Shown here: positions 43,819 to 53,122 of the stretch, piece by piece
Layout: the number at the start of each line of letters is the position of its first letter
Numbering within the stretch: position 1 is the first letter of the stretch
NCBI RefSeq assembly: GCF_001580915.1
Contig: NZ_LHZQ01000215.1
Coordinates: 1 to 64,000, forward strand
Direction: 5' to 3'
Origin: Acetobacter tropicalis
GTDB lineage: Bacteria; Pseudomonadota; Alphaproteobacteria; Acetobacterales; Acetobacteraceae
DNA length: 64,000 nt
The notes under the pieces: model-generated
The model's input: only the letters and a program-made list of their open reading frames with translations
Databases searched by the model: none
Told to the model about the DNA's origin: nothing
Program-made: the position numbers and the translations under genes

Positions 43819-44544
43819 TCAGATGTTTTCAAGCGTGACGAGGGTAAAAAGGCCGGCCGGTGGCACTGGCTGAATTCTCGCCCGCACCAGATCTTCCGGC
43901 GGCAGAAGGGATTCCATGGCAAAATCAGGATGCCAGCCCAGAGAACGGGACGCGCGCGCCATACCACGTTCCACAGCGCCACGAACACCGCCGGGAGCCA
44001 GAAAGTGGTTTACAAACAGGATGTGACCGCCGGGTTTGACCACCCGTTTGAGTTCACGCAGCAGCCTGCGCGGATGCGGTACAACGGACGCCACAAACAT
44101 GGCCACAGCAATATCGAAGGAGTCGTCCTCGAACGTTGTCTCTTCGGCATCCATTTCCAGAAGGGCATCGACATTATTCAGATGCTCTTTCTGTACGCGT
44201 TCACGCGCACGGGCCAGCATGTCACCAGACAGATCAATGCCGGTAATATGCTTGTCCTTGCGATAGTGCGGGAGAGCGAGCCCAGTACCAACACCAACTT
44301 CAAGAACGCCAGTACCGGGCAGGGCATTGACAGCTTCAACCGCTCGACGGCGACCAAAGCCAGAAACGCCACCAAACACGGTGTCATACACACCTGCCCA
44401 CCGGCGGTAAGCGACCTTTACGGCCTCGGCATCCAGCGCTGAACGCGACGGAGCCGGATCTTCACCCTGACCGGGCGAGCATTTGTGGAGAACGTCACTC
44501 ATGGTTTCTCTCTGCCCGCTGGCGGCAATTTCTTCAAGAGCCAC
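43819..44544 (-). CDS. PmtA-type phosphatidylethanolamine N-methyltransferase
   Basis: SAM-dependent methyltransferase of the Rhodobacter-type Pmt family, which methylates phosphatidylethanolamine stepwise to phosphatidylcholine. 241 aa. VYDTVFGGVSGFGRRRAVEAV (about 52-72) is the family entry block, and the SAM site is VLEVGVGTGLALP. GTG 44544 has AAGGA nine bases upstream; ATG 44502 is an alternative start. Soluble or membrane-associated. Phosphatidylcholine is a major lipid in Acetobacter. A closer match to a UbiE/menaquinone-type methyltransferase cannot be excluded by eye. Confidence 0.75.
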   Translation of the reverse strand: MALEEIAASGQRETMSDVLHKCSPGQGEDPAPSRSALDAEAVKVAYRRWAGVYDTVFGGVSGFGRRRAVEAVNALPGTGVLEVGVGTGLALPHYRKDKHITGIDLSGDMLARARERVQKEHLNNVDALLEMDAEETTFEDDSFDIAVAMFVASVVPHPRRLLRELKRVVKPGGHILFVNHFLAPGGVRGAVERGMARASRSLGWHPDFAMESLLPPEDLVRARIQPVPPAGLFTLVTLENI

Positions 44545-44881: not shown

Positions 44882-45880
44882 TCAGGCCCCCTTTTTCAGC
44901 TTTGCTTCAATGCAGTCCCATATGGCACCCGCTCCGTTGACGCCATCAAAACGCTCCAGTTCCTGAAGGCCGGTAGGAGAAGTCACATTGATTTCCGTCA
45001 GGTAATCACCAATCACATCTATGCCCACAAAAATCAGACCGTGTTCCTTCAGGAACGGCCCGATGGCAGCACAGATCTCCTTGTCTCGCTCTGTCAGGGC
45101 CACTTTGCGCGCCACCCCCCCAACATGCATGTTGGAGCGGTGATCATCTCCTGATGGCACACGGTTAATCGCGCCTACAGGCAGGCCATCAACCAGAATA
45201 ATGCGCTTGTCCCCCTGCTTTACGGCGGGTTCGTAACGCTGAATCATCAACGGTTCACGAGAGCGCGCAAAGTGCATTTCCAGAAGAGCATTCAGATTCT
45301 GGTCATCTTCCTTGATACGAAAGATGCCACTGCCGCCATTGCCGAAAAGCGGTTTGACAATGATATCCCGCCAATGCGCACGAAAAGCCCGGATTTGCCC
45401 GACATCCCATGTGACCAGCGTAGGGGGCATGAGGTGTGGGAAATGCGTTACCAGCAGTTTTTCAGGAGAATCCCGCACCCAGCGCGGATCATTGACCACC
45501 AGAGCCTTGTCTGCACCAATCCCATGAACGTGGTCCAGCAGATGGGTTGCGGTAATATAGGCCATATCAAATGGCGGGTCCTGCCGCATCAGCACCACAT
45601 CCATCTCCCCCAGGGACCGACGAACAGGCTCGCCAAACGTGGCGTGATTACCCTGCTCCCGCCGCACCGTGACAGAACGTAGGGAGGCGCTGACATGGGC
45701 AGAGGTTGCACCACCCGGCGAGGTTGTTCCCTCCCCAAGCGCCAGGGACGGAACTTCATACACAAACAGCTTGTGGCCGCGCCCCTGCGCCTCCAGCATC
45801 AACGCGAACGTAGAATCTCCGTTGATATCAACATGCTCCAGGGGGTCCATCTGGACAGCAACATTCAATGGAGATGACAT
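44882..45880 (-). CDS. gshB: Glutathione synthetase
   Basis: ATP-grasp ligase joining gamma-glutamylcysteine and glycine. 332 aa. It starts with [25 protein letters not shown], the prokaryotic GshB N-terminus, followed by [10 protein letters not shown]-like [13 protein letters not shown], the ATP site [12 protein letters not shown] and [11 protein letters not shown] at the C-terminal active site. Monocistronic as far as visible. Confidence 0.95.
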
Positions 45881-45986: not shown

Positions 45987-47456
45987 TTAGTGTCGAGACG
46001 GCAGCAAAACGGCATTCTGGCCATGGCCTGCGGCATCACACTGCGTCCGCACGTGGTAGAGCGCATATCGCTCACCCACCGCGCCATCACGTTCCCGCGC
46101 AAGATCCTGTTCCTGTGAAAGCACTGTGAACAGTGCGGTATCCGGCATGTCATGCCGCCGCCGACTACGGATGAGGTATCCTTCCCCACACGCAGCCTTC
46201 GGAAAGGTAAACAGACTCCACCGGGGCTCAACCGCCACAACCGGGCGGCCTACAGGGGCATAAAACGCCAGTTCAGCAGCCAGACCATATTCATCCGCAA
46301 TCAGAACAGAGTCGGCAGGCACGTGCGCCACAACAATCCGGCCAAAATCCGGCCATCCCCCCATCTGGCGTAATGTCATGTCCAAATGCGGAGAAAGTTT
46401 AAGCGGGGACGCCACCGCCTGAATGACAATCAGCGCCACAAGGGCAATACCCACCCCGCTGGCGACCTTCCACCCGCGCCAACGGGGCAGCGCCGCCGCC
46501 ATGGCCAGTGCCGGATAAAGAACAACAGGCCAGTTTGCCTGCACCCGCGCTCCTACGGCATGCTGCACAAATACAGCCAGTGGCACCAAAATCATGCACA
46601 GCAGCAGGCGCGAGAACGAGTCCCGCTGTTTCCACAGCACCACGCAGCCGCCGATAAAAAACAGGAATACACCGGGGGACATCAACCCGACCTGTCCGCC
46701 CACCAACTCGCTGAAATAGGTCAGCATTCTGGCAGGATGCCAGTCTCCGGTGCGGCCTCCCTGCTTCATGAAGCTGGCCCAGTGATGCGAGGCATTCCAC
46801 CAGACAACCGGACTGACACACACAGCGGCCACAGCACCGCCCAGCCATGGCCACCACGTTTTCAACCATCCCCTGCCCGCCTGAGTAGCGAGAAGCCATA
46901 CCCCCATGCCGCCTGCGGGAAGAAGCGCTGTGTATTTGCTATCAAACCCGAGCCCCACGGCAGCCCCAACCAGCAACCACCATGCACCGTTGCCGGTTAC
47001 GCAAAGACGCCCAAGACTCCACACCATCAGCGTCATGAAAAGCAGGAGGGGGGTATCCGGCGTCATCAACAGTGTGCCAACACCAAGCGCTACAGTTCCG
47101 TTCAGCAAAACTGCGGTACGCACCCCTGCTCTTTGAGCATCTTTCGCACTGTAACCCGCCAGATGCTGTAACCAGTCCCGCGTTGCCATTGCCAGCAGAA
47201 TCGTGCCGACTGCAGCGGACAAAGGCCCCAAGAACCTTACGCCACAGGCATTATCTCCTGCTACCAACAAACCAAGCTTGATGAACACCGCCACCATTGG
47301 AGGATGATCGAGATATCCGGCAGCAGGCGCCAAGGCCCACAGGCGGTAATAGGCTTCGTCCGGCGTGAGAGGCACCACAGCCCCCATGACAATCCGGATG
47401 GCGGTAAGCACCAACAGTGCCAGCCCCCACCCATAATAGGGAGACTTCAGATGCAT
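45987..47456 (-). CDS. GT39-family (ArnT-like) membrane glycosyltransferase
   Basis: Polytopic GT-C enzyme of the PMT/ArnT family that transfers a sugar from undecaprenyl phosphate to a periplasmic acceptor. 489 aa from ATG 47456, 11 bp after the upstream stop. The first periplasmic loop carries the family acidic site LTPDEAYYRLW and YLDHPPM. About 11-12 membrane helices follow, then a ~110-residue soluble C-terminal domain. It is the third gene of a cassette with an Lrp-type regulator and a GT2-GtrA fusion, which supplies its lipid donor. The acceptor is unknown. Confidence 0.85.
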   Translation of the reverse strand: MHLKSPYYGWGLALLVLTAIRIVMGAVVPLTPDEAYYRLWALAPAAGYLDHPPMVAVFIKLGLLVAGDNACGVRFLGPLSAAVGTILLAMATRDWLQHLAGYSAKDAQRAGVRTAVLLNGTVALGVGTLLMTPDTPLLLFMTLMVWSLGRLCVTGNGAWWLLVGAAVGLGFDSKYTALLPAGGMGVWLLATQAGRGWLKTWWPWLGGAVAAVCVSPVVWWNASHHWASFMKQGGRTGDWHPARMLTYFSELVGGQVGLMSPGVFLFFIGGCVVLWKQRDSFSRLLLCMILVPLAVFVQHAVGARVQANWPVVLYPALAMAAALPRWRGWKVASGVGIALVALIVIQAVASPLKLSPHLDMTLRQMGGWPDFGRIVVAHVPADSVLIADEYGLAAELAFYAPVGRPVVAVEPRWSLFTFPKAACGEGYLIRSRRRHDMPDTALFTVLSQEQDLARERDGAVGERYALYHVRTQCDAAGHGQNAVLLPSRH

Positions 47457-47467
47457 GGGGAAGAAGC

Positions 47468-48589
47468 TCACACGCGCCAGACGACGGTAGAGGAGACGGC
47501 ATAGTTCCATACAACCGCCAGAATGGCGCCCGCCACACTGGCTTGGGTCAGTCCCTCATGCGCCTGGAACAGCATTTGCGCGACGCCCACGTTGGCCACC
47601 GCACCTATGGAACACACCAGCATGAAAGCCAGTAGGCCACCCACAAACCGAAGACCACGCAGGCGCTTATCCCGATAGGTGATGTTATTATCGAGCACAA
47701 AATTGAGGATCATGGCGACAACTGTGCCAACCCCTTGCGCCACGGGAAAATCGCCCCCCATGGTGCGAATGCTCTGCATGACCGCCAGATTGACGCCAAC
47801 CCCTACAGAACCCACCAGACAGAATGCCACAAAACGCAATGGCAACCAGCCACGACAAAGCTTGTCCAACACCAGCGCCAGAAACTGGAGCATGACCAGC
47901 GCATCCAGTTTGCTCTCACCGGCAAGTCTGGCCCGGAACCCACAGGGCACTTCCTGCACGCGCAACGGCTTGGAAGAAGACAGCAGAAGATCCAGTAAAA
48001 TCTTGAACCCGGTTCCGGAAAGGCGTGGGGCAACAGCCGCAAACACATCCTGCCGTAACGCGAAAAAGCCACTCATCGGGTCACTTAACCGGACGGGCAG
48101 AACCATCTGCGCCAGCTTTATTCCACCGTCAGAAAGCGCGTGGCGCCATGCGTTTGCCAGTCCGGCATTGTTGCCACCTTCAACGTGGCGGCTTCCGACA
48201 GCAATATCACACTCGCCGCTTTGCACGGCGTCAATCAGCGCGCCAAGACGGGAGTCGTCGTGCTGAAGGTCTCCGTCCATCACCGCCACAATCTGGGCGG
48301 AGGACGACAAAGCTCCTTCAATAACTGCGGAGGAAAGGCCGCGCCGCCCAACCCGGCAAAGGCCGCGCACCCGCGCATCCTTTTGGGCAAGCGCCCTTAC
48401 GGCCTGCGTGGTGCCATCAGGTGAATTGTCATCCACAAACACCACTTCCCAATGGCGGCCAGCCAGCGCGCGATCCAGAGCCGCCACCAACGGCGCAATA
48501 TTCCTGACTTCATTATAGCAAGGAATAATGACACTGATGTCAGGACCGCCACGCGCAGCGCCCGGCAATGCCGGAGCGTCTGAAATCAC
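47468..48589 (-). CDS. GT2 polyprenyl-phosphate glycosyltransferase fused to GtrA
   Basis: 373 aa. The N-terminal ~235 residues are a GT2 domain of the dolichol-phosphate-mannose-synthase type, with SVIIPCYNEVRN, VDDNSPDGT, MDGDLQHD and GSRH. The C-terminal ~130 residues are a four-helix GtrA domain (VAFCLVGSVGVGVNL through VWNYAVSSTVVW), the presumed flippase of the lipid-linked sugar. One chain therefore makes and flips undecaprenyl-phosphate sugar. It overlaps the Lrp-type gene by 4 bp. Confidence 0.88.
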   Translation of the reverse strand: MISDAPALPGAARGGPDISVIIPCYNEVRNIAPLVAALDRALAGRHWEVVFVDDNSPDGTTQAVRALAQKDARVRGLCRVGRRGLSSAVIEGALSSSAQIVAVMDGDLQHDDSRLGALIDAVQSGECDIAVGSRHVEGGNNAGLANAWRHALSDGGIKLAQMVLPVRLSDPMSGFFALRQDVFAAVAPRLSGTGFKILLDLLLSSSKPLRVQEVPCGFRARLAGESKLDALVMLQFLALVLDKLCRGWLPLRFVAFCLVGSVGVGVNLAVMQSIRTMGGDFPVAQGVGTVVAMILNFVLDNNITYRDKRLRGLRFVGGLLAFMLVCSIGAVANVGVAQMLFQAHEGLTQASVAGAILAVVWNYAVSSTVVWRV

Positions 48590-49071
48590 GGACGACTACC
48601 TTCCGATCCGACAACGAGCGGCACCCCGGTTCTCTCCAGACTTGTGCGAATGGTTTGCAAAGTCTGCACCCGGATAACGTGTGGTCCTTCGGTCAGCCGT
48701 CGGGTCAACTGGTTTTCATGGGCGGCATCCCGCGCAATCAGGCGCACCAGAAAATCACCTCCACCGCGAATCATGTGGCATTCGCGCACTTCCGGCCACT
48801 GGGCCAGCTCCTGCTCAAACGCGGAAAGAATGGCCTCTTTTTGGCTATCCAGACCAATCAGCGCGAAAAACGTAATCGGCCAGCCCAGCATTCCGGCATC
48901 TGGCTCGGCGTGGTAGCCGCGAATAACCCCCAGTTCCTCCAGGCGCCGCACGCGCCGCAGGCACGGCGGGGCCGATATCCCCACACGCCGCGCCAGCTCC
49001 ACATTGGTCATCCGGCCATCGTCTTGCAGTTCCGCCACAATACGCAGGTCAACAGCGTCAAGTTCTGTCAC
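48586..49071 (-). CDS. Lrp/AsnC family transcriptional regulator
   Basis: 161 aa. The N-terminal helix-turn-helix (about 5-55) reads TNVELARRVGISAPPCLRRVRRLEELGVI. The RAM/ACT-like C-terminal domain has GGGDFLVRLIARD. Divergent from trxB, an arrangement I associate with alphaproteobacteria. The stop overlaps the start of the GT2-GtrA gene, so it may regulate the glycosylation cassette, trxB, or only itself. Confidence 0.88.
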   Translation of the reverse strand: MTELDAVDLRIVAELQDDGRMTNVELARRVGISAPPCLRRVRRLEELGVIRGYHAEPDAGMLGWPITFFALIGLDSQKEAILSAFEQELAQWPEVRECHMIRGGGDFLVRLIARDAAHENQLTRRLTEGPHVIRVQTLQTIRTSLERTGVPLVVGSEGSRP

Positions 49072-49126
49072 CTTATCTGTTCCATTTTACGCCGCAGCCT
49101 TTTCCTGAACATCTTGCCCCGTATAT

Positions 49127-49144
49127 GCCATGCGTCTGCATGGC
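49127..49144. promoter_or_regulatory. Perfect inverted repeat in the lrp-trxB divergent gap
   Basis: GCCATGC and GCATGGC form a 7-4-7 dyad, 55 bp before the regulator's ATG and 122 bp before trxB. Lrp-type proteins often bind dyads near their own promoter, so this is a candidate operator. No convincing -35/-10 pair was assigned. Confidence 0.35.
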
Positions 49145-49266
49145 TCGCAAACCACTTACGCCTCTTGCCCAAACGGAAGGCTCCCGCCATATCGCAAGCA
49201 GGAATATTAAGGTGCGTGCCACGCGCTGCTTCACACTGACATTCACCAGGAAGGCCTGCCTGAACA

Positions 49267-50217
49267 ATGACTGAGACCATTACAACTGAACTGCTGGTTA
49301 TTGGCGCTGGCCCTGCTGGCTACACGGCGGCCATTTACGCAGCCCGTGCAAATCTCAAGCCAGTTCTTGTGGCGGGTCTTCAGCCTGGTGGCCAGCTCAT
49401 GATCACGACCGATGTTGAAAACTATCCCGGCTTTGCCGAGGCCGTGCAAGGCCCGTGGCTGATGGAACAGATGGCGGCGCAAGCCGAACATGTGGGAGCC
49501 CGTATTCAGCACGACATCATTACATCGGTGGATTTCCAAGCTGGCTCCCCTTTCCGGATGGTGGGAGATTCCGGCACGCAGTATGTTGCAAAGTCCGTGA
49601 TTATCGCCACCGGTGCACAGGCAAAATGGCTGGGCCTGCCCAGTGAGAAGCGTCTGCAAGGGGCTGGTGTTTCCGCCTGCGCAACATGCGATGGGTTTTT
49701 CTACCGTGGCAAAAACGTGGTGGTAGTGGGCGGCGGCAACACTGCCGTTGAAGAAGCCCTGTATCTGACGCACCACGCAGCACACGTTACCCTTGTGCAC
49801 CGGCGCGATACGCTGCGGGCTGAAAAAATCCTGCAGGACCGTTTCTTCGCCAACCCGAAAACTTCCATTATCTGGAACAGTGTAGTGGAGGACATTCTGG
49901 CCGATGGCACGCCAGCCGTTGTCTCGGGCATCAAGCTCCGCAACACACAGGACAACACAACAACCGTTTATCCTACGGATGGTGTTTTCATCGCTATTGG
50001 GCATTCTCCCAACACGGGCATTTTCGCAAACCAGCTTTCACTGGATGACGAAGGCTATATTCTGACCACCCCCGGCTCGACCCACACATCTGTGCCCGGC
50101 GTATTTGCCGCAGGCGACGTACAGGACAAGATCTACCGTCAGGCCGTAACGGCAGCGGGAAGCGGCTGCATGGCGGCGCTGGATGCCGAGCGCTATCTGG
50201 CTGAAATACAGGACTAA
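49267..50217 (+). CDS. trxB: Thioredoxin-disulfide reductase
   Basis: FAD/NADPH enzyme that reduces thioredoxin. 316 aa. FAD motif GAGPAGYTAAIYAARANL (13-30), redox cysteines C138 and C141 in CATC, NADPH motif GGGNTA (155-160), and C-terminal GVFAAGDV FAD block. AAGG near the ATG is weak, but the start matches the family. Confidence 0.96.
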   Translation: MTETITTELLVIGAGPAGYTAAIYAARANLKPVLVAGLQPGGQLMITTDVENYPGFAEAVQGPWLMEQMAAQAEHVGARIQHDIITSVDFQAGSPFRMVGDSGTQYVAKSVIIATGAQAKWLGLPSEKRLQGAGVSACATCDGFFYRGKNVVVVGGGNTAVEEALYLTHHAAHVTLVHRRDTLRAEKILQDRFFANPKTSIIWNSVVEDILADGTPAVVSGIKLRNTQDNTTTVYPTDGVFIAIGHSPNTGIFANQLSLDDEGYILTTPGSTHTSVPGVFAAGDVQDKIYRQAVTAAGSGCMAALDAERYLAEIQD

Positions 50218-50286: not shown

Positions 50287-50321
50287 GTTAATCACTTTAT
50301 TCAATATTGCAGGAGGCATGC

Positions 50322-51203
50322 GTGGACTGGGACAAACTCCGGGTTTTCCATGCTGTAGCCGAAGCGGGTTCCTTTACCCACGCTGGAGATGTCCTGAACC
50401 TGAGCCAATCTGCTGTTTCTCGGCAGATTTCGGCTCTGGAGGACGTTCTTCAGGTTCCTCTTTTTCACCGCCACGCCCGGGGACTGATCCTCACTGAACA
50501 GGGCGAGACGCTGCATAAGACGGTGCGCGAAGTCTTTTCAAAACTTGAAATGACCCAAACGCTTTTAACCGAAAGCAAGGAAAAGGCAGCCGGTCGGCTA
50601 CGGGTTACAACCACTACAGGCTTTGGCAATTGCTGGCTTATGCCACGGCTGCACAAGTTTATGTCCGCCAATCCCGATATCGATATCTGCCTGATTCTGG
50701 AAGATAACGATCTTGATCTTGGCATGAGAGAAGCCGATGTGGCCGTGCGTATGCATGCCCCACGCCAGCCTGACCTCATTCAGCGGCATCTGGCGGATTT
50801 CCATCTGCCTATTTTTGCGGCCCCACTTTATATAGAAAAGTATGGCACCCCCAAATCCATTGAAGATATCAGCACACACCAGCTTGTTCTTTTCGGAGAA
50901 CATCATCCGCCGGTAGCGCATATCAACTGGCTGTCTGAAGCAATCCGTCACAATGGTACCAAGCAGCAGGCCCGGCTGGAAGTCAACAGCATGGCCGCCA
51001 TGGCATCCGCCATCGCATCCGGCTTGGGTATAGGCTCCATTCCCACTTACGCGGCAAAAGAATTTCCGGATCTGGTTCAGATTCTTCCTGAAGTTGCCAC
51101 GCCAACAGTGGACGCCTATTTTGTCTATCCGGAAGAGCTTCGGAGCTCCAAGCGTGTAGCCGTGTTCCGTGACTTCCTGATGAGCGAATTGGGAATCCGC
51201 TAA
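50322..51203 (+). CDS. LysR family transcriptional regulator
   Basis: 293 aa. GTG at 50322 has AGGAGG five bases upstream and gives the typical start VDWDKLRVFHAVAEAGSFTHAG. The helix-turn-helix (about 3-60) includes LSQSAVSRQISALE. The effector domain begins near residue 95 (LRVTTTTGFGNCWLMPRL). It follows trxB on the same strand and ends before a strong terminator. The effector is unknown. Confidence 0.88.
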   Translation: MDWDKLRVFHAVAEAGSFTHAGDVLNLSQSAVSRQISALEDVLQVPLFHRHARGLILTEQGETLHKTVREVFSKLEMTQTLLTESKEKAAGRLRVTTTTGFGNCWLMPRLHKFMSANPDIDICLILEDNDLDLGMREADVAVRMHAPRQPDLIQRHLADFHLPIFAAPLYIEKYGTPKSIEDISTHQLVLFGEHHPPVAHINWLSEAIRHNGTKQQARLEVNSMAAMASAIASGLGIGSIPTYAAKEFPDLVQILPEVATPTVDAYFVYPEELRSSKRVAVFRDFLMSELGIR

Positions 51204-51282: not shown

Positions 51283-52722
51283 TCAGTTTCTATTATAACT
51301 GTCTTCAATACGGATAATATCGTCTTCTCCCAAATATGCACCTGATTGCACCTCAATCAGCGTCAATGGGATCTTTCCCGGATTTTCCAGCCGGTGCGTG
51401 CATCCCTGCGGCAAATACACACTCTCATTTTCGCGCAGCAAAAGCTGCTCTTCATCCCGCGTTACCAGAGCCACACCCGCCACTACCACCCAGTGCTCGG
51501 AACGATGGAAGTGTTTCTGCAAGGAAAGCTTGCCACCGGGGTTCACCACAATCCGCTTTACCTGAAAACGGTCGTTACAGATCAACCCTTCATAAAACCC
51601 CCAGGGCCGGTAACATCTCTGGTGCGTAAAGGCTTCTGAGCGCCCGTCCCGCTTCAACTGATCCACCAGTTTCTTAACGTTCTGCGCCTGACTTTTATGC
51701 GTCACCAGCACTGCGTCAGACGTCACCACCACAACCACATCATCCAGACCAGATACAGCAGTGAGCATCCCTTCCGAGCGAACGTAACACCCGTGCGCTC
51801 CTTCCGTCAGAACATCCCCAATCAGAACGTTATTGTCCGCATCCTTGTTACTGATATCCCACAGGGCATCCCAACTTCCTACGTCAGACCAGCCCAGATC
51901 TGCCGGGATAACGGCTGAAACATCGGTTTTTTCAGCAATGGCGTAATCGATGGAAATATCCGGTGCCTGAGCAAACGCGTCTTTATCAAGCCGGATAAAG
52001 TCCAGATCCGTTGTTCGCTTTTCAAAAGCAGCCTGCACATGCTCCAGCACCTGCGGGGCATATTTGTGCATCTCTTCCAGCAATACATCCGCGCGGAAGA
52101 CGAACATGCCTGAATTCCAGAAATAGTTTCCATCCTCCACAAAACCTTTGGCTACATCTGCCGACGGTTTTTCACGAAACGAACGAATAACAAACGCTCC
52201 GTCCACTCCGGGCAGCGGCTCGCCTTTTTCAATATAGCCATAACCCGTTTCCGGGCGTGTGGGAGTCATGCCGAATGTGACAATCCGCCCGAGCCGGGCA
52301 GCTTCAACCGCTTTTTCCATAACGGTTTGCAGCGCAGGATGATTTTTGATTTCCGCATCCGCTGGCATCATCCACAGAATGGCCTGCGGGTTTGTCTGGG
52401 CCACCAGCAGAGCTGCCGCCGCAATGGCAGGGGCTGAATTACGCCCTACCGGCTCAAGCAGAATACTTGGTCTTTCAACCATCACTTCACGCAACTGCTC
52501 TGCAATAAGAAAACGGTGTTCTTCATTGCAAACAATAACAGGGGGCGCAAAACCAGCAGAATGTCCCCGCAGGACTGTTTCCTGCAGCATGCTGCGCTCA
52601 CTCAGTAATGCCCAGAGCTGCTTGGGAAAACTGGCTCGAGACATGGGCCAGAGACGGCTCCCGGTCCCACCAGACAACACGACAGGCACAATGCCTGATT
52701 CCGTCTTACCGCCCTGCCCCAT
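51283..52722 (-). CDS. manC: Mannose-1-phosphate guanylyltransferase / mannose-6-phosphate isomerase
   Basis: Bifunctional type II enzyme that makes GDP-mannose for polysaccharide synthesis. 479 aa from ATG 52722 (AAGGA eight bases upstream). The nucleotidyltransferase domain starts SGGTGSRLWPMSRASFPKQ. The cupin isomerase domain (about 380-475) has RPWGFYEGL, KLSLQKHFHRSEHW and the terminal DIIRIEDSYNR. Probably feeds exopolysaccharide or LPS; no other sugar-nucleotide gene is next to it. Confidence 0.93.
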   Translation of the reverse strand: MGQGGKTESGIVPVVLSGGTGSRLWPMSRASFPKQLWALLSERSMLQETVLRGHSAGFAPPVIVCNEEHRFLIAEQLREVMVERPSILLEPVGRNSAPAIAAAALLVAQTNPQAILWMMPADAEIKNHPALQTVMEKAVEAARLGRIVTFGMTPTRPETGYGYIEKGEPLPGVDGAFVIRSFREKPSADVAKGFVEDGNYFWNSGMFVFRADVLLEEMHKYAPQVLEHVQAAFEKRTTDLDFIRLDKDAFAQAPDISIDYAIAEKTDVSAVIPADLGWSDVGSWDALWDISNKDADNNVLIGDVLTEGAHGCYVRSEGMLTAVSGLDDVVVVVTSDAVLVTHKSQAQNVKKLVDQLKRDGRSEAFTHQRCYRPWGFYEGLICNDRFQVKRIVVNPGGKLSLQKHFHRSEHWVVVAGVALVTRDEEQLLLRENESVYLPQGCTHRLENPGKIPLTLIEVQSGAYLGEDDIIRIEDSYNRN

Positions 52723-53122
52723 TTTTACAGTCCTTGTTTTTATGTTCTGACAAATCGCCACTGTTGTTCAGCATTGTCTCGGGCAAACTTCAAGATAAAC
52801 AGCGTACAGCCTGAGACCGGCCTTAATAGCCCCCTGATGAAAGCTGATCATCCTGCCTTAAAATACCAGCACAACGCCGATCAGATGGTTATGGTTGCAA
52901 AAAATGACTACTCATTCTTCAGACGTTTCCACAGCACGCAGAAACAGAGATTACAAAACGTTTATTTTACTTGACGTTTATCTTTGCCCTTCCCACAAAA
53001 TGGCTACTCGATAAAGAAAAGACGCTTTATTCAGCGCCATTTCAATATTTTCTATTCACAAACAAGAATACTGATAGTATGTGTTACTGCATATCAGCCG
53101 ATAAAATAAAAATGGATCCATC
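52723..53122. other. 400-bp AT-rich intergenic region between manC and the Ros/MucR gene
   Basis: No gene I can support. A 66-codon open frame at 52774-52974 has no family resemblance or ribosome site. The region is AT-rich toward the right. It contains ACGTTTAT twice (52958-52965 and 52974-52981), plus ACGTTT at 52923 and ACGCTTTAT at 53022, a possible binding cluster. A -10-like TAGTAT at 53075-53080 lies 42 bp before the Ros/MucR ATG, without a good -35. Confidence 0.6.

Follow-up and report, generated by a model that had tools for sequence, protein, structure and literature searches.

A three-gene run between trxB and gshB

The window, a 64,000-nucleotide stretch of Acetobacter tropicalis DNA, carries at 45987-49071 three genes that a first-pass annotation had read as an Lrp-type regulator, a GT2-GtrA fusion and a GT39-type transferase. 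All three open reading frames were confirmed on the minus strand, with domains that match these names (Table 1). The Lrp product combines an AsnC-type helix-turn-helix with an AsnC ligand domain, both above the Pfam cut-offs. A phospholipid N-methyltransferase-like gene (43819-44502) lies downstream of gshB and is kept behind it in many Acetobacter loci.

Table 1. Genes and intergenic region of the locus, in window coordinates.
Feature	Position	Strand	Evidence and remarks
gshB, glutathione synthetase gene	44882..45880	-	TIGR01380 and NF003573 above cut-off; 106 bases behind the transferase gene
PMT_2 (GT39-type) transferase gene, predicted GT-C	45987..47510	-	PF13231, E 5.8e-28; alternative start at 47456 gives 45987-47456
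GT2-GtrA fusion gene, probable polyprenyl-phosphate mannose synthase with transmembrane GtrA domain	47468..48589	-	PF00535 (residues 19-183), PF04138 (residues 256-371)
Lrp/AsnC-family regulator gene	48586..49071	-	GTG start; heads the run and is divergent from trxB; PF13412, PF13404 and PF01037 above cut-off
Intergenic region, divergent lrp and trxB	49072..49266		Open reading frame positions
trxB, thioredoxin reductase gene	49267..50217	+	TIGR01292 above cut-off; conserved partner, divergent from the Lrp gene
LysR-family regulator gene behind trxB	50307..51203	+	PF00126, PF03466; LsrB/VtlR position
Bifunctional mannose-1-phosphate guanylyltransferase/mannose-6-phosphate isomerase gene	51283..52761	-	TIGR01479, E 1.5e-206, above cut-off; GDP-mannose supply

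The four-base overlap ascribed to the run exists at the Lrp/GT2-GtrA junction (48586-48589), not at the GT2-GtrA/transferase junction. There, the frames overlap by 43 bases if the transferase begins at its first ATG (47510) and are separated by 11 bases if it begins at the ATG at 47456. Residues 1-19 mostly have low confidence values in the structure model, which makes the later start plausible. A site scan of the window found no terminator-like site between the three genes, so a single transcript is plausible, and the arrangement named beforehand as telling against it, a regulator in its own terminated unit, was not found. Nor was a terminator-like site present between the transferase gene and gshB, which is possibly on the same transcript. 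A promoter of the run would sit in the lrp-trxB intergenic region, for which the scan reported no sigma-70-like site. In the locus L104 (6434-9111), motB-, motA- and Gre factor-like genes, recognized by eye, stand between the transferase gene and gshB; ten loci of this type among the best 80 of 575 relatives have gshB nearly 3 kb further away.

A probable mannose synthase and its transferase

The GT2-GtrA protein is probably a polyprenyl-phosphate mannose synthase of the dolichyl-phosphate mannose synthase (DPMS) type. By phmmer, it aligns with the Pyrococcus furiosus enzyme (5mlz) over residues 17-372 of 373 (E 3.8e-50, 174.7 bits), whereas ArnC and GtrB score 42 bits (E 6.6e-10) and 22 bits (E 7.7e-4). 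The structure paper on the Pyrococcus enzyme names the side chains that hold GDP-mannose and the lipid phosphate (PMC5526996, in the part available), and at all 14 that could be mapped the window protein and all 17 orthologue rows have the identical residue. E206, which makes its contact by the main chain, is kept in 14 of the 17 alignment rows. The most telling of the side chains is His94, kept in all 17 rows, which is described as contacting a mannosyl hydroxyl and is replaced by Asp in GtrB (PMC5526996, same part). An ArnC-like GT2 protein encoded elsewhere in the genome likewise has Asp at this place (DGDGQD). A scripted motif search for DPMS matched 6 of 18 loci, with the misses ascribed to the narrowness of its pattern.

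Full-length DPMS kinship together with 14 of 14 conserved binding side chains makes mannose the very probable sugar, and the nearby GDP-mannose gene also counts for this reading. The resemblance is no proof of mannose, since AepG, a DPMS-like archaeal enzyme, is reported to produce Dol-P-GlcA (PMC9943897, in the part available). The Pyrococcus enzyme and the GT2-GtrA fusions of its class share with the window protein the two-domain, full-length alignment and all mapped side chains. Unlike the Pyrococcus enzyme, to which it is likened by sequence, the window synthase is bacterial, and its lipid is presumably undecaprenyl phosphate. The three-component GtrA/GtrB/GtrC glucosylation systems presumably follow the same make-flip-transfer logic with GT2 and GtrA domain types; the window synthase, however, is far nearer to DPMS than to GtrB, and its genes are not on a phage. 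That logic, proposed for the run in the first-pass annotation, gains support from a DPMS-type synthase with a fused GtrA domain beside a predicted GT-C transferase.

The transferase was assigned to no family by sequence, since searches against solved structures (phmmer, PDB) and NCBIfam, including the ArnT model, both returned no match. We therefore do not class it as ArnT proper. Its structure model (mean pLDDT 90.6) has a predicted GT-C fold, and Foldseek places ArnT first (5f15, E 4.1e-9, TM 0.60; also 5ezm), followed by ALG12 with Dol-P-Man, with Pmt4 and Pmt1-Pmt2 scoring weaker. Residues D51 and E52, which form the acidic first-loop motif, are invariant in 29 alignment rows. The closest named match among the best 80 of 575 relatives is from A. 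senegalensis (81% identity). As in the ArnC/ArnT and RgtE/RgtD/RgtF lipid A systems, a lipid-phosphate sugar synthase is combined with a predicted GT-C transferase, a likeness drawn for the Rgt proteins without direct comparison. Here, however, the predicted sugar is mannose, the synthase is fused to GtrA, and it is by fold, not by phmmer, that the transferase resembles ArnT.

A conserved pair in an older trxB-lrp neighborhood

Across 60 Acetobacteraceae genomes, with a transferase orthologue defined by E < 1e-50, synthase and transferase are both present in 51 and both absent from 9, with no discordant genome (naive Fisher p 7e-11, uncorrected for relatedness). Three of the nine hold weak PMT_2 paralogues only (E 1e-14 to 1e-17) and were scored absent. 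By hand count, with contig breaks making each figure a lower bound, the synthase gene is next to the transferase gene in at least 33 of the 51 pair-bearing genomes (some of the other 18 have them at contig ends), the Lrp gene is next to one or the other in at least 34, and all three stand together in at least 21. Beyond the family, a transferase at E < 1e-60 was found in only 6 further genomes of 289 sampled from the class. Two of these, from the same family, have an adjoining GT2-GtrA gene, and in a third, a weak GT2 match (32%) lies at a distance of about 500 bases; neither Lrp nor trxB occurs in the stretches read around the transferase gene in any of the six.

Among the best 80 of 575 named relatives, which do not include Bradyrhizobium or Granulibacter, one locus holds all three genes in 57, so the arrangement is not due to chance; the expectation of a shared order outside the genus was thus borne out. 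A start giving the four-base overlap is available in 35 of these 57 loci (hand count). The synthase gene is in the locus in 61 of the 80, the Lrp gene in 74 and trxB in 75. The remaining 19 of these best 80, which include Komagataeibacter species, A. cibinongensis, A. thailandicus and A. orientalis, all have a DPMS-type synthase elsewhere in the genome, according to a search that also took in two genomes with the local fusion. For 12 of the 19 remote synthases, the catalytic part alone was matched, in frames of about 264-310 residues, which probably lack the fused flippase domain; the loci L160-L170, from Komagataeibacter and some Acetobacter, show this pattern. Such genomes seem to manage without the GtrA domain and would need a different flippase.

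The regulator follows a different pattern. An Lrp orthologue is present in 58 of the 60 family genomes, and 8 of the 9 without synthase and transferase are among these (Fisher p 0.28 for co-occurrence with the cassette); in 17 of the 51 cassette genomes it is next to neither enzyme gene, a hand count that contig breaks make an upper bound. In all 14 regions inspected from cassette-free (8) or unlinked (6) genomes, it is divergent from trxB with the LysR gene behind. Elsewhere in the class, outside this family, 15 of 20 regions, picked from the hit list rather than at random, have trxB within about 5 kb on either side of the Lrp gene; GT2-GtrA occurs in none of the 20 over the same distance. 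At 1.5 kb on either side, trxB accompanies 14 of the 30 best class-wide Lrp loci, which include the window and two relatives. That Lrp keeps to trxB without the cassette indicates that the regulator is part of an older trxB-lrp block, in which the pair appears to have settled.

We weighed these counts against the proposal that Lrp serves the cassette as a dedicated switch responding to amino acids, a claim about control that is compatible with any acceptor. Shared transcription with the pair is likely, and the available overlap start in those 35 of 57 three-gene loci also speaks for the proposal. However, Lrp tracks trxB and not the enzymes, in cassette-free genomes, in unlinked regions and in other families alike. 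The dedicated control put forward in the first-pass annotation was thus dropped as the default; Lrp is probably no such switch, and we consider the proposal unlikely. In one locus from another family (L238:2377-3864), a 27%-identical PMT_2-type protein is encoded between trxB and Lrp. Five loci with no linked cassette (L186, L190, L192, L232 and L237) have greA-like genes, some with carB, beyond the Lrp gene, as judged by eye; these perhaps represent its older neighborhood.

The statement that no role had been described for such an arrangement is not quite right. In Sinorhizobium meliloti, according to the parts available of two papers, an Lrp gene heads the LPS glycosyltransferase operon lrp3-lpsCDE, which is activated by LsrB, and LsrB also controls gshA and gshB (PMC8226930, PMC7486931). 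The window cassette is similarly flanked by a trxB-LysR pair and by gshB, the counterpart of an LsrB regulon member. The lpsCDE products are presumably core glycosyltransferases and not the GT2-GtrA/PMT_2 pair. The LysR gene behind trxB has the position of LsrB/VtlR, but its product lacks the conserved LsrB cysteines C144 and C273 and has cysteines only at 5, 109 and 128, which lowered our estimate of thiol control through an LsrB-like regulator. Since, moreover, A. tumefaciens VtlR is described, in the text available, as not binding the homologous promoter, we claim no redox control.

Lipid A as the likeliest acceptor

We propose that the GT2-GtrA protein and the PMT_2 transferase form a two-gene mannosylation module with lipid A position 4' as the likeliest acceptor, a reading to which we give a probability of about 0.5. 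On the cytoplasmic face, the GT2 domain would charge undecaprenyl phosphate with mannose taken from GDP-mannose, a step for which the sequence argues strongly; the fused GtrA domain, by analogy with its family, may help the product to cross the membrane; and the transferase, which by its predicted fold very probably faces the periplasm, would hand the mannose to the acceptor. At lipid A position 4', the result would be the alpha-mannose found in acetic acid bacteria in place of the 4'-phosphate. An alpha-mannose product fits two inverting steps. Such a pair would have settled into the older trxB-lrp neighborhood.

The choice of acceptor draws on published structures. In the parts available of two papers, lipid A of A. 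pasteurianus and Granulibacter is described as free of phosphate, position 4' bearing mannose and position 1 glucuronate (PMC7956469, PMC8036547), and an RgtF-like gene is linked to position 1 (PMC8036547). A. pasteurianus LMG 1262 carries the pair. The A. tropicalis genome has three PMT_2 genes: the one in the window, an ArnT-like one and one near integrase-like genes. The ArnT-like gene belongs to a second lipid-sugar pair (L036:3829-5525), in which an ArnC-like GT2 gene (251 residues) is followed by the transferase gene, cut by the contig end; this pair stands behind ATP synthase-like genes. ArnT-like genes occur in 40 of the 60 family genomes and are decoupled from the window pair (Fisher p 0.70). 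With two core lipid-sugar pairs and two lipid A sugars, elimination would give glucuronate to the ArnT-like pair, which fits as a candidate for it, and mannose to the window pair; this assignment to 4'-mannosylation stands at about even odds. The third PMT_2 gene lies with a gene for a sugar-binding-region glycosyltransferase between integrase-like and relaxase-like genes (L037:4264-6884, by eye), a region that looks mobile.

The run itself contains no known lipid A gene, and none was recognized by eye in the open reading frame lists of eight flanking loci. Two of the counts above also speak against the assignment: the 18 of 51 family genomes in which the synthase and transferase genes do not adjoin, and the mere 6 genomes beyond the family, of 289 in the class sample, with the transferase. 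Bradyrhizobium lipid A, too, carries mannose at 4'. We found no paper in the open-licence literature naming the mannose gene of acetic acid bacterial lipid A. LpxK is present in the genome, so a 4'-phosphatase would be required; in a PAP2 search of the genome for both lipid A phosphatases, only one protein passed E 1e-3, and no 4'-phosphatase was assigned.

The same chemistry might instead serve another periplasmic acceptor, such as the LPS core, an exopolysaccharide, a hopanoid or another lipid. Specificity is not readable from sequence, and the pair is absent from 9 of the 60 family genomes. Moreover, the stand-alone DPMS gene of A. cibinongensis and A. orientalis adjoins, at a separate locus, a gene for a different PMT_2-like membrane protein of about 500 residues (L171:5584-7915, L174:3450-5796; by eye), so more than one enzyme there may draw on the mannosyl-lipid. 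However, the pair is single-copy in 51 of the 60 genomes and forms one conserved orthologue group, which suits a core trait of the envelope better than polysaccharides that vary between strains, and we regard a different acceptor as possible but doubtful. It is less probable still that the transferase is a bacterial PMT acting on exported proteins: the PMT_2 family is named after protein mannosyltransferases and the Foldseek matches include Pmt proteins, but these rank below ArnT, and the PMT domain itself (PF02366) is absent, PF13231 being the sole Pfam match. An exchange of sugars, in which the window pair would add glucuronate at position 1 and the ArnC/ArnT-like pair mannose, is very improbable: AepG is a precedent for a DPMS-like enzyme using GlcA, and the ArnT-like gene is tied to glucuronate by elimination, not directly, but His94 and the other mapped side chains are kept in the window synthase, the ArnC-like protein resembles GtrB at that site, and PMC8036547 links position 1 to an RgtF-like gene.

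The enzymes are ordinary and of known kinds, and the chemistry of acetic acid bacterial lipid A, with mannose and glucuronate in place of phosphates, is already published; what is new is a conserved mannosylation pair that the literature searched leaves without assignment and that most likely acts at lipid A 4'. Tentatively, at somewhat less than even odds, the pair may be the 4'-mannosyltransferase system so far missing for lipid A in acetic acid bacteria, an equivalent of RgtD that handles mannose and whose synthase carries a fused flippase domain of its own; given its place beside trxB, a regulator in the LsrB position and gshB, mannosylation of a lipid A that lacks phosphate may be linked to thiol status or to acid stress. 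If the assignment is true, the 4'-mannose structure can be probed by deleting either of two genes in harmless food bacteria, and a different 4' group is to be expected in the nine family genomes that lack the pair.
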